DNA from: a virus
DNA length: 64,000 bases
Direction: 5' to 3' (one strand)
Virus record (IMG/VR): IMGVR_UViG_3300010316_000006
Coordinates: 1-64,000 of that record
The translations under genes were made by a program, and so were the position numbers. The notes under the pieces were generated by a model that was not told the DNA's origin, searched no databases, and saw only the letters and a program-made list of their open reading frames with translations. Of the stretch, positions 23,078-52,235 are shown in pieces. The stretch's first letter is position 1. Each line of letters begins with the position of its first letter.

Positions 23078-23515
23078 TTAAATCCCATACCCAGTACGAT
23101 GAAGATCGATAGTCCATTGTTGAAGAATAATATCAATTTGGGATTTCATTCCGAAGAGCACACCGCATGTATTGACGCTGGCCAGATGAATGAATGAGCC
23201 ATCATGAATTGGATATGTTGGATCATTCACCATTGCCGCGAACACAGTTTTGGTTAATTCTTTTTGAACATCATCCACGATATTCTTGATTGTTTCTTCA
23301 TTGTGGGCATCAAACACCAGACAGGTGCCGAAACCTTGAGTGGTGGTGTTTTCCCATTTATCGTATGCCTTACTCATTTCGTCTGTGAAACTTGGTAGGG
23401 CCGCTGCAAGAACGCTTGATGCATGTGCAGCTTGGGCCATGCCACGACCCGGAGTCATAGAAGCCAAATCGGATCGCATCAGAATAATCTGAACTGGGTA
23501 ATCTTCGGTCTTCAT
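23078..23515 (-). CDS. Diverged Pth2-like protein (copy C)
   Basis: 145 aa. IILMRSDLASMTPGRGMAQAAHASSVL near the N-terminus (written in parts: strand IILMRSDL, loop, then GRGMAQAAHA) follows the Pth2 strand-loop-helix where GK-x-x-x-Q-x-x-HA is usual; later strands TCLVFDA and CGVLFGM take the places of KVVLKA and TVLGIGP. The GK lysine is replaced (GRG), so catalytic activity is uncertain. Followed by the SLOG gene's product upstream in the same transcript. Confidence 0.6.
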   Translation of the reverse strand: MKTEDYPVQIILMRSDLASMTPGRGMAQAAHASSVLAAALPSFTDEMSKAYDKWENTTTQGFGTCLVFDAHNEETIKNIVDDVQKELTKTVFAAMVNDPTYPIHDGSFIHLASVNTCGVLFGMKSQIDIILQQWTIDLHRTGYGI

Positions 23516-30442: not shown

Positions 30443-31036
30443 TCATTTTTGACAAAGTATTTCGGCAATGCGACCACCATACTTGTTCATGGCCTTCCAC
30501 TTGATTTTGAAGCCCGTGGATGAGATTCCACCAAACATACGCGCATTGCTGTGAAGTTCACATAAACCCGTTATAAGCAACGTTGCTGCCTCTTTACGAG
30601 ATGCGAATTCTTCAATCCCATCTGCACGCATCAAATGAATATCCATATCCATTCGCATCAAATCGGAAATCTGTTGATCACCCATTAGATGCATCCATAG
30701 ATCAGCTGATATATTAGCATGATCTGGGAAATGGTGACGACCTTCCGTATCGATGGTTCTACAGAATGGTTTACCACAATCGTGATAGATTTGATATGTA
30801 CGAATCGTCTTGTGATCTAATAGTTGATCCCATAACTTTTCATTATAAATCCAATTAGGTAATTTCCATTCATATGTTGTAGGTGAATCATAAAGTATAT
30901 GATCCTGAAGATCACGGAAGTAATCATAGATTGAATATCCGTGTTCCAACACATCTTGATCCTTGAACTGTTTGCATTTCATCATCATGCATCCAAGTTC
31001 ATCAATATTTTTGATTTTCGTATAATCCTTGGCCAT
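30443..31036 (-). CDS. HD-domain phosphohydrolase-like protein
   Basis: 197 aa from ATG at 31036 (TGATG overlap with the Pth2-like gene). YHDCGKPFCR near residue 84 is an HD motif and HHFPDHANIS near 100 supplies further His/Asp ligands, in the style of the HD domains linked to tRNA nucleotidyltransferases and nucleotide phosphohydrolases. Substrate unknown; coupling to a Pth2-like gene hints at an RNA role. Confidence 0.65.
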   Translation of the reverse strand: MAKDYTKIKNIDELGCMMMKCKQFKDQDVLEHGYSIYDYFRDLQDHILYDSPTTYEWKLPNWIYNEKLWDQLLDHKTIRTYQIYHDCGKPFCRTIDTEGRHHFPDHANISADLWMHLMGDQQISDLMRMDMDIHLMRADGIEEFASRKEAATLLITGLCELHSNARMFGGISSTGFKIKWKAMNKYGGRIAEILCQK

Positions 31037-31413
31037 CACACGCACCCAAACTTTTTAATGATCGGGTAAATCTCTTCGCGGCGACACGGACCAATACCAA
31101 GCGCCGTGATGATGGGATTACCATCAAAGTGCGGCGGCATGATATGTTTCTGATCCACGATCAAGGCACAAGGAATGCCAGATTCGCGAATTCGATTATA
31201 GGTATTGATGAGTTGGGTTTCGCCCTTGGCTTTCAGAACGACTTTCGATCCACCATGGCCGGTACGGTAATTATGAAACCGTTCAGGTGATTGATCTAAA
31301 GCCTGACAAAGACTGTCAGTGAAAGCATGACCAGCTTGGGACGCAAGCTTGCCCGAAGGCATTTCAAGGTCTTTGCGAATGATAGCGTAAAGATAAAGAT
31401 TATTATCCGACAC
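31036..31413 (-). CDS. Pth2-family peptidyl-tRNA hydrolase-like protein (copy B), amber at codon 3
   Basis: 125 aa from a GTG at 31413: LYAIIRKDLEMPSGKLASQAGHA, given as strand YAIIRKDL then GKLASQAGHAF, with KVVLKAKGE and ALGIGPC downstream; all Pth2 hallmarks incl. the GK lysine. The GTG has no ribosome-binding site. A much better start lies 48 bases upstream in frame: AGGAG, six bases, ATG at 31461, then ACG and TAG (31453-31455), then 13 sense codons to the GTG. So the natural N-terminus is cut off by an amber codon unless it is suppressed; a CTA tRNA lies 600 bases away. Confidence 0.85.
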   Translation of the reverse strand: MSDNNLYLYAIIRKDLEMPSGKLASQAGHAFTDSLCQALDQSPERFHNYRTGHGGSKVVLKAKGETQLINTYNRIRESGIPCALIVDQKHIMPPHFDGNPIITALGIGPCRREEIYPIIKKFGCV

Positions 31414-32084: not shown

Positions 32085-32161
32085 TGGTGGCTGGTATGGG
32101 ACTTGAACCCATATCTGGGAGTTTTAGAGGCTCCGACTTTGACCAATTAAGCTAACCAGCC
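32085..32161 (-). tRNA. Candidate amber suppressor tRNA, anticodon CTA
   Basis: 77 bases including CCA, canonical cloverleaf: acceptor GGCTGGT/ACCAGCC, D stem GCTT/AAGT, anticodon stem GGAGC/ACTCC (C-A mismatch next to the loop), loop CTCTAAA, variable CAGAT, T stem ATGGG/CCCAT. Position 33 is T and 34-36 are CTA, which reads the UAG codon; position 37 is A. Any symmetrical reading of the loop gives CTA. The amino acid cannot be told from sequence alone. Confidence 0.82.
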
Positions 32162-49666: not shown

Positions 49667-50360
49667 ACTAGTAGATGGCAAACCATTCCTAGTAACAAAT
49701 TATCACGATCTATGCGAACACCATATTTCGCGACCGGACGAAAGTATTCTGAAGGAAGCGACATATAAAGATATTCAAATGTTCATCGATAATGACTTTT
49801 TGAAACAACGGGTTCGTGCAAATGCTCTTGAAGGCGTTAGATGGAAGGGTGTTGAAGATGGAACCATCATGTTCAACATCAAATCCAGTCTCCACAAAGA
49901 CAATAATATAACCTACACCAATGCTTTTAAATTGAATTCATGGGATGCCTTTGTGGATGAAACAGAATTCAATCCAATCGAGCGTGCTAGATTGATGATG
50001 ATGGAAGATGATTTGATGGTTCATTGTACCTGTCCATCGTTTCTTTATTGGGGATATCAATATCTTCTAACTCAAATTGATGCTGCCCTAGTACCAGAAG
50101 ACCGTTTACCCAAAATCAGAAACCCCAAACAACGTGGTATTGTGTGTAAACATTTGAACAGATCACTAAGATCATTCCCGTTCTTTACATCTGACCTAGC
50201 ACAATACATCAAGCATAACCATAATTCCAAACATGGCAAAGATAATACGGAAGATAAACAATCTAAAATGACCGAAGCTGCTTATTCTAGCAATGACGGG
50301 GATGTGTTATATGAGGAAATATTAAAATGGAACAAGGTGAAGAAGACGAACAATTCATGA
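49656..50360 (+). CDS. SWIM zinc-finger protein
   Basis: 234 aa. CTC at 124-126 and CKH at 164-166 give C-x-C-x(n)-C-x-H, the SWIM-type zinc finger, within VHCTCPSF and GIVCKHLNRSL. SWIM fingers bind DNA or protein. N-terminal part unknown, C-terminus Lys/Asn-rich. ATG overlaps the upstream gene. Confidence 0.75.
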   Translation: MNVKLVDGKPFLVTNYHDLCEHHISRPDESILKEATYKDIQMFIDNDFLKQRVRANALEGVRWKGVEDGTIMFNIKSSLHKDNNITYTNAFKLNSWDAFVDETEFNPIERARLMMMEDDLMVHCTCPSFLYWGYQYLLTQIDAALVPEDRLPKIRNPKQRGIVCKHLNRSLRSFPFFTSDLAQYIKHNHNSKHGKDNTEDKQSKMTEAAYSSNDGDVLYEEILKWNKVKKTNNS

Positions 50361-50638
50361 TTGCCATGAATTCTCGCTACCCAACGAAGAATTATCAATT
50401 AAAATTCAGCAACCCACAGCGAAAAAATAATAATAGCATCAGAGATTTCATGTCTTTTCTCATGAGTTTGTCTTTACGGGGAAAGAGTGAAGAACAAATT
50501 GAAAACCGAATATTAAAAGAATATCCAACACACAGCGTAAATGTCATATTATTAGATGATGAAGGCGAAGCGTTCGAGATTGATATCATCGGACCAAGAA
50601 TTGTCGCCTCATTGATTTATGAGGATGTTATCAGATGA
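50327..50638 (+). CDS. Hypothetical protein
   Basis: 103 aa, unrecognised; GAGGAAA upstream, 34-base overlap with the SWIM gene and ATGA overlap with the next. Confidence 0.62.
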   Translation: MEQGEEDEQFMIAMNSRYPTKNYQLKFSNPQRKNNNSIRDFMSFLMSLSLRGKSEEQIENRILKEYPTHSVNVILLDDEGEAFEIDIIGPRIVASLIYEDVIR

Positions 50639-51048
50639 GAACGCTTATATTAACACGTGGTCCAGACAATCTAAGAAAGCCGGTCGTTGCTGAATTGATG
50701 TCCTTACTGAACACCGATGTTAATAATATCACAGCCACCTTCTTATCATTCTCTGATTACGATTATTTGCGCGATCCTAAAGCCGCATATGCTTCTGTTA
50801 AGAAATCCTTAAAGGTGGAAGTCAATAATCAAAACAGACACATCGTAATAGATTCAGAGTCGCCCGGATTACAATCATGGACCGGGTTTGCTTCGGCGCT
50901 GAAGGGAACGTCGATCTATACAATCGGATTGGATTGTACCGAAGAACCTATTATTTTCAATCCCAAAACAGCCTTCACAATGTTTCAGTGTGTTCATTCG
51001 TCTCATATACAGCATATACTTAAAACAAATAACATATTGACTAATTAG
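50635..51048 (+). CDS. Hypothetical protein, possibly P-loop-like
   Basis: 137 aa. Opens RTLILTRGPDNLRKPVVAEL, which sits where phage kinases have a P-loop, but the GK-S/T is missing; later strand HIVIDSESP. Could be a decayed nucleotide-binding fold. Confidence 0.58.
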   Translation: MRTLILTRGPDNLRKPVVAELMSLLNTDVNNITATFLSFSDYDYLRDPKAAYASVKKSLKVEVNNQNRHIVIDSESPGLQSWTGFASALKGTSIYTIGLDCTEEPIIFNPKTAFTMFQCVHSSHIQHILKTNNILTN

Positions 51049-51074
51049 AAACACGTTGATATAATACTTGTATT

Positions 51075-51449
51075 ATGTTTGCTAACGAAACTGCCGCCTT
51101 TTTCTTACTAGCTCGTTATAGCGACGAGAACTTTGACCAGACAGGTGATCTGTCTGCCGAAGACGCGCTTCTGCATGCACAGACTTTCATTGATTCTATA
51201 CTGGATTTATTCGGTCGCATCAACAGCGATATGGGTGAAGTTGAACTTCAGACTCATTTTTATGATGTTGGTAAGGAATATTACGGAGGTCCACAAAACC
51301 TTCGTGCATTTTTCCGTGATTGTTACCTGATGTTGACAGGACGACCAGAAGGTTCACGCATCGGTGTAATGGTTTACATATTGGGAGTTGATGAATTCAA
51401 GTCTCGTATGTGTCGCCGAATGAATGATCCGTTAGGCGAATTTAAGTAA
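51075..51449 (+). CDS. Stand-alone domain resembling the C-terminus of class I LysRS
   Basis: 124 aa. HFYDVGKEYYGG, LRAFFRDCYLMLTG, then EGSRIGVMVYILGVDEFKSRM match the order and spacing of the last segment of class I lysyl-tRNA synthetases (V-Y-x-V-G-K, W/F-F-x-x-L-Y-x-V-L-L-G, G-P-R-x-G-S-F, L-x-G-V), the anticodon-binding end, as in alphaproteobacteria. No catalytic domain. Judged from memory of the family, not a search. Could alter host LysRS or bind tRNA. Confidence 0.5.
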   Translation: MFANETAAFFLLARYSDENFDQTGDLSAEDALLHAQTFIDSILDLFGRINSDMGEVELQTHFYDVGKEYYGGPQNLRAFFRDCYLMLTGRPEGSRIGVMVYILGVDEFKSRMCRRMNDPLGEFK

Positions 51450-51490
51450 TGGTGCATATCGGAGTTATTCTTCAATCCGATATGCACCAT
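51449..51490. terminator. Perfect 15-bp inverted repeat between convergent genes
   Basis: 51449-51463 pairs with 51476-51490 around a 12-base A/T loop; both stop codons lie at its edge or inside. No T-tract. Confidence 0.55.
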
Positions 51491-52235
51491 ATTCTCTGGG
51501 ATCATCAACAATCTTAATAGCATGTGACGTTCCCACGATTTCACCAGCATCAAAATCCACATAGGCCAGTTTGCCGCCTTCATAGGTTTGGTGACCTAGA
51601 TCAACGAAATGAGCTGTACCGCCATCGGTGGTGAAAGACAGAATATCATTCATCGACAAGATGTGGTGACCAATGAAAACGTTGCGGCCTTCAGGGATAT
51701 AATCAAACCAATCCAGTAGGCGCATAGGAAGCCCATTCTCCCCGATAACGCCATTGGTCATTCCATAGACCAAACGGCTTCTCAGGATGTCTTCTTCCTT
51801 CTTGGATCGCTCTGTTTCATCGGCGATAGGGTGGTAAGAAGCATGGGCGAAGAAATTCTTCCCATAATTCACATACCAAGGGATATTGCCCATGAATGTC
51901 TTGTACCGTTCAACAAACGCTTCACCCTTCGCATCAATATCGATTCGGGTCAGCTTATGCGTTTCTGATACAGATACAGGCCGACCCTGATAGAATCGGT
52001 AATGCTTCCAACCGTGATTGGACATAACCACATGACCTTTACCTTGGTCATTCAGGTCCATCATCAGTTCAATGCATTTAGCAGGGTCTGGTCCACGGTC
52101 TTCAAGGTCACCCAGTTGCAGAACATACCTGTCCTGTTCAACGGCTTCCGTGACCATTGCTTCAAATTCGTCAAACCCACCGTGAACATCACCAATGGCT
52201 CTAACATTTTTATCTTTATCAATAACAAATTCCAT
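51465..52235 (-). CDS. PPP-family metallophosphatase
   Basis: 256 aa. GDVHGGF near 17-23, GDLEDRGPD near 42-50, SNHGWK near 73 (in place of GNHE), FAHASYH near 128 and GHH near 190 are the metal-site motifs of the calcineurin-like/PPP phosphatases. Likely a phage protein or nucleotide phosphatase like lambda PP; substrate unknown. Confidence 0.9.
   Translation of the reverse strand: MEFVIDKDKNVRAIGDVHGGFDEFEAMVTEAVEQDRYVLQLGDLEDRGPDPAKCIELMMDLNDQGKGHVVMSNHGWKHYRFYQGRPVSVSETHKLTRIDIDAKGEAFVERYKTFMGNIPWYVNYGKNFFAHASYHPIADETERSKKEEDILRSRLVYGMTNGVIGENGLPMRLLDWFDYIPEGRNVFIGHHILSMNDILSFTTDGGTAHFVDLGHQTYEGGKLAYVDFDAGEIVGTSHAIKIVDDPREYGAYRIEE

Follow-up and report, generated by a model that had tools for sequence, protein, structure and literature searches.

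What would a phage do with only the end of a class I lysyl-tRNA synthetase (LysRS)? The question is raised by a small open reading frame (ORF) in a 64,000-nucleotide stretch of viral DNA (hereafter the window), which is part of a 79,572-base IMG/VR virus record, itself a fragment. Whole tRNA synthetases and tRNAs are known in phages, but we found no record of the anticodon-binding piece alone as a phage gene. The ORF runs from an ATG at 51075 to a stop codon at 51447-51449, and its codon-position composition is of the coding type (36% G at position 1). The features of the locus are collected in Table 1.

Table 1. Features in and around the LysRS-like ORF (window coordinates).
Feature	Position	Strand	Details
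Two upstream genes, function unknown	50327..51048	+	Order kept in relatives, 31-54% identity
Predicted sigma70-type promoter, TTGACT-N17-TATAAT, extended TG	51037..51065	+	ATG at 51075
ORF, freestanding C-terminal (anticodon-binding) subdomain of class I LysRS	51075..51449	+	124 aa
Segment homologous to class I LysRS, model 446-517 of 528	51183..51404	+	Residues 37-110
Perfect 15-bp hairpin between convergent genes	51449..51490	.	z=-6.1, -25.3 kcal/mol
Metallophosphatase, related to bacterial Pnkp phosphatase domain	51465..52235	-	Convergent neighbor of ORF

When compared to NCBIfam (hmmscan), the ORF product matched only two families at E<=10, both class I lysine--tRNA ligases: NF001968 (E=2.2e-8, the aligned segment being given in Table 1) and TIGR00467 (E=2.2e-5, model positions 445-511 of 515). 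The original prediction, which described the ORF as an orphan C-terminal domain of class I LysRS, holds up in that a class I synthetase profile is matched significantly (NF001968), the matches are specific to class I LysRS and C-terminal only, and the four motifs it named occur in order (VGKE at residues 65-68, FFRDCYLMLTG at 79-89, GSRIG at 93-97 and LGV at 103-105). The profile it had proposed for the check, tRNA-synt_1f, was not recovered, since a Pfam search reported no family, and it was the two class I LysRS families that gave significant matches instead. A PDB sequence search with the product reported nothing, and PHROGs returned one weak family of unknown function (E=0.044).

A DNA polymerase search of IMG/VR retrieved three records with a 67% identical polymerase, one of them a 5.6-kb fragment. 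The other two, of 335,552 and 52,867 bases (the 335-kb and 53-kb relatives), each have an uninterrupted, freestanding version of the ORF. These full-length orthologs (126 aa at 48% identity and 128 aa at 43%, E~1e-25) also match NF001968 at its C-terminal end (E=5.9e-11 and 4.6e-8). The homologous segment carries the conserved pattern VGK...LRxFF...Y..L.G...G.R.G...G, and the LysRS-invariant residues G66, K67, L76, F80, Y84, G89, G93, R95, G97 and G104 are present in the ORF product as in both orthologs. Of the near-invariant LysRS motif GPRxG, the G, R and G are retained, and the P is replaced by S, S and V in the three phage proteins. Together, the NCBIfam, LysRS-profile, ortholog and hhalign matches (the profile and hhalign results are given below) rule out a chance or weak resemblance to LysRS. 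Judged from these alignments, the homology of the ORF product extends over the final ~70-95 residues of class I LysRS, the alphaproteobacterial type being nearest.

Bacterial GluRS shares a C-terminal domain with class I LysRS (Anticodon_2, PF19269), and a GluRS origin was considered and rejected: a profile built only from alphaproteobacterial LysRS C-termini gave 41.5 bits for the window protein (E=1.1e-9, Z=177,635; 40.0 bits with another build), vs. 10.3 bits (E=5.5) for a GluRS C-terminal profile built from three sequences only. Similarly, hhalign of the three-phage-ortholog profile gave a probability of 98.7 against LysRS-only C-termini, with no rows in common between the two profiles, and 88.8 against GluRS. 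In a tree, the window protein falls among LysRS and outside GluRS, but on a branch of 7.9 changes per column, and its exact place is thus imprecise. A genome-contig scan with a small profile found 28 loci, each of which can be placed in the Alphaproteobacteria from its title or lineage (one titled only Proteobacteria), and 23 of the 24 examined lie in LysRS-length frames (536-791 aa), the remaining one (L007, 301 aa) being interrupted by a contig end. The middle row of our alignment A2 is a LysRS C-terminus that served as a search probe only, and alignment A5, with an artificial hybrid row, entered no search.

The C-terminus of Pyrococcus horikoshii LysRS (1IRX, whose sequence was verified letter for letter) is assigned to PF19269, so that the part of LysRS matched by the ORF is the Anticodon_2 part. 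Homology of the ORF product to this domain rests on the LysRS C-terminal profile and hhalign; PF19269 itself was not reached, one phage ortholog having a weak match (E=0.078, under the Pfam gathering score). An all-helical fold is predicted for the phage protein: an AF2 model with 20 LysRS relatives in the alignment reached a pLDDT of 78.6 and a pTM of 0.71, although these LysRS rows lean the model towards that family. Of its eight best fold matches in the PDB, seven are GluRS chains (E 0.4-2.9, none at E<=0.001); unlike GluRS Anticodon_2, however, the phage sequence is LysRS-like, and it scores below the Pfam gathering score. Single-sequence prediction was poor (pLDDT 46.9), and a profile of only the three orthologs found no relative among solved structures (the best match, at E=0.35, being an amylase). 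Overall, the protein is acidic (pI 4.6-5.0), with an acidic N-terminal half and a basic C-terminal half (pI 9-10) in all three phages.

Evolutionarily, dN was 0.51-0.57 among the three orthologs with dS at least 2.1 or saturated (from a codon tool marked experimental), and a dN of ~0.5-0.6 with saturated dS corresponds to a maintained gene under purifying selection at the protein level rather than a decayed fragment. The gene order is common to the three phages (ribonucleotide reductase small subunit, glutaredoxin-like gene, endolysin, small genes, ORF and convergent phosphatase), with a tRNA-Pro between the small genes and the ORF in the two relatives. Gene decay is ruled out by the intact orthologs (43-48% identity), this conserved order and a dN well below dS, and with a conserved promoter position (see below) and coding-type composition added, we regard it as extremely improbable, despite the small size and missing catalytic domain, that the ORF arose by chance or is what remains of a formerly complete phage LysRS in decay. 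A further record of 35 kb, from a different metagenome, is 99.96-99.98% identical to the window record and adds no independent or selection evidence. In each of the three phages the ORF has this phosphatase as its neighbor (58-59% identity). An AAA_33 kinase (Pfam) is encoded near the phosphatase and ORF in the 53-kb relative, and the 335-kb relative has an ORF resembling it; phosphatase and nearby kinase possibly form an RNA-repair pair.

Eight sites in the 79.6-kb record match at 11 of 12 positions, the predicted promoter among them. Because the ATG lies 9 nt after the -10 element, transcription is predicted to start at ~51072, about three bases before the ATG, without a Shine-Dalgarno sequence. 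The orthologs have comparable promoters (TTGACT...TATAAT and TTGACA...TATACA, with the ATG 7 and 6 nt past the -10 element), and the ORF mRNA is predicted to be leaderless or nearly so in all three phages, and probably transcribed early by the host RNA polymerase from the gene's own promoter. Many genes of these phages have a sigma70-like -10 element ending 4-12 nt before the start codon, which suggests a class of leaderless early genes; the arrangement is thus that of a gene class in these phages and not unique to the ORF. Downstream, the hairpin between the convergent genes is a probable transcription end, and a different hairpin, identified by eye, occupies the same site in the 53-kb relative.

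The 79.6-kb record comes from a T4-like phage and contains T4-type genes (topoisomerase II, ribonucleotide reductase and DNA polymerase), and its polymerase is nearest to those of Sinorhizobium phage Phosso and Agrobacterium phage Atu_ph07 (36%), both jumbo phages of Alphaproteobacteria. The alphaproteobacterial host originally suggested is favored by the closest similarity being to alphaproteobacterial LysRS, by this polymerase affinity and by an alphaproteobacterial-type permuted tmRNA in the 335-kb relative (RF01849, 110 bits; L102 6936-7276, minus strand). The ORF is maintained in a group of jumbo phages whose hosts are probably alphaproteobacterial.

These phages are rich in translation-directed genes. 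The window includes 14 tRNA genes and a CCA-adding enzyme, and the 335-kb relative ~45 tRNA genes, three of them tRNA-Lys, together with a T4 Rnl1-type RNA ligase and Rnl2-type ligases. In the 79.6-kb record, itself a fragment, neither a tRNA-Lys nor an RNA ligase was seen. The RNA ligases may simply repair cleaved tRNA as in T4, and by themselves they do not demonstrate a protein that shields it. Three ORFs of the window, all on the minus strand, are of the PTH2 peptidyl-tRNA hydrolase type (610-969, 31036-31413 and 23078-23515; E 1e-19, 2e-21 and 7e-7 against PF01981).

The catalytic part of LysRS was predicted to be missing, and this is what we found: TIGR00467 matched nothing beyond the C-terminal stretch in the 79.6-kb record, nor in the 335-kb, 53-kb and near-identical records. 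Whole-model scores of the ORF product against the two class I LysRS families were likewise far below the curated cut-offs (33 bits vs. 648 and 23 vs. 147.55). Lacking a catalytic domain, the protein is unable to charge tRNA. It could still be one half of a split LysRS with the catalytic part elsewhere in the phage genome, since complete class I LysRS are known in phages (IMG/VR L037, L038 and L039; halovirus HGTV-1); with only the C-terminal stretch visible to TIGR00467 in its own record and in the 335-kb relative (possibly incomplete), we find this very unlikely. A separate catalytic LysRS gene in these phages is accordingly judged unlikely from the records searched, which may be incomplete genomes. 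The three IMG/VR records (578, 8 and 149 kb) carry complete alphaproteobacterial-type class I LysRS genes, and HGTV-1 gene 197 (L035 574-1701) a compact one of 375 residues vs. ~530 in cells.

What function, then, would an anticodon-binding subdomain serve alone? We propose, as the best-supported reading and with a probability of roughly 40%, that it binds the anticodon arm of tRNA-Lys and withholds that tRNA. A phage would have captured the helical last subdomain, part of the anticodon-binding module in the full enzyme, from an alphaproteobacterial class I LysRS and maintained it as a separate gene; early transcription by the host RNA polymerase from its own promoter would yield a (near-)leaderless mRNA; and the protein would bind the anticodon arm of tRNA-Lys, whether host- and/or phage-encoded, keeping it most likely from host anticodon nucleases or, alternatively, from host LysRS. 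Binding is supported by the LysRS-invariant residues and the basic C-terminal half, as well as by the tRNA-directed gene context and the recurrent targeting of tRNA-Lys by defense nucleases, namely PARIS AriB (PMC12409363) and PrrC (PMC2610378). In the anticodon itself, U35 and U36 are determinants for class I LysRS (PMC9976931). Several points count against it: the phage protein has only the last of the two subdomains of the anticodon module, and RNA binding by this one alone may be weak; the GPRxG proline is replaced and the whole protein is acidic; and the 79.6-kb record, a fragment, has neither tRNA-Lys nor RNA ligase. If tRNA-Lys is bound, this would represent a new viral way to manage or protect a tRNA repeatedly attacked by bacterial defenses, as well as a small natural tRNA-binding module for laboratory use.

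It is tempting to speculate on a more specific version, which we hold to be quite unlikely as it stands, in which the subdomain, taken from host LysRS, occupies the tRNA-Lys anticodon arm early in infection and protects it from host anticodon nucleases. Such a shield is hypothesized to be a protein counter-defense alongside phage tRNAs and RNA repair. The same tRNA is protected by the decoy tRNAs of T5 against PARIS (PMC12409363) and by phage tRNA repair enzymes against PrrC (PMC2610378), but these replace or repair the tRNA, whereas the hypothesized shield would act before cleavage.

Alternatively, the free subdomain might compete with, or dock onto, the host class I LysRS itself (as a dominant negative or allosterically), lowering or redirecting lysylation during infection. 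A class I LysRS C-terminal domain is encoded in 309 of 385 sampled alphaproteobacterial genomes, this type is the one that the phage domain resembles most, and a promoter predicted for the host RNA polymerase fits host takeover. Blocked lysylation would be costly, however, for phages whose own proteins need lysine and of which one, the 335-kb relative, has three tRNA-Lys genes, and we consider this scenario unlikely.

A somewhat better case can be made for exaptation, in which the fold was kept but now serves a different RNA or protein partner, such as mRNA, the processing of phage tRNAs or the neighboring phosphatase, without any link to tRNA-Lys. The very long tree branch, the lost GPR proline, the acidic N-terminal half of all three phage proteins and the Pnkp-phosphatase-type enzyme as a constant neighbor are all consistent with such a change of partner. 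The residues shared with LysRS are nonetheless its invariant ones, so that the same surface or core seems constrained, and on balance we deem exaptation improbable, if plausible.

Among known systems, alphaproteobacterial class I LysRS (NF001968) is homologous to the protein over its last ~70-95 residues. The protein shares with it the conserved G-K, L-R, F, Y, L-G and G-R-G, but lacks the catalytic domain, the first subdomain of the anticodon module and the GPRxG proline. The class I LysRS of HGTV-1 and of the three IMG/VR records are also virus-borne, yet retain the catalytic domain (375 to ~550 aa). Cells likewise have a synthetase part as a separate gene in Glu-Q-RS/YadB (PMC9437257), where a catalytic domain occurs without an anticodon domain, the reverse of the phage gene.

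The window protein had no relative among 50,697 annotated phage records, in which a LysRS C-terminus significantly matched only HGTV-1; in seven annotated jumbo-phage relatives, no match to profile A3 was better than E=0.02, and an IMG/VR scan with the three-ortholog profile added no members to those already found. Both the IMG/VR and the genome-contig scans were pattern-based, and distant members may escape them. In the 385 alphaproteobacterial genomes, the strong matches among those listed are in LysRS-size frames, and upon re-examination of 14 genomes with extra or weak matches, frames <300 aa were limited to fragments in a single genome, two of them at contig ends. Among the matches listed, none of these genomes thus has a freestanding LysRS C-terminal gene, one genome having the fragments. 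The tblastn matches in Rhizobium megaplasmids were rejected as chance, in a region without a LysRS ORF. As far as the collections and literature searched here extend, a freestanding LysRS anticodon subdomain gene was previously unrecorded.

Two further observations concern the tRNAs of these phages. A tRNA with a CTA (amber) anticodon, called tRNA-Pyl by ARAGORN, is encoded in the window (32085-32161, minus strand) and in the 335-kb relative (L108 14867-14942), and TAG serves as stop in 11 of 119 selected ORFs. One of the three phage tRNA-Lys genes (L104 8818-8892, minus strand) has a G2-U71 pair, which in Borrelia is known as an identity element for class I LysRS (PMC9976931), and the other two are without it.
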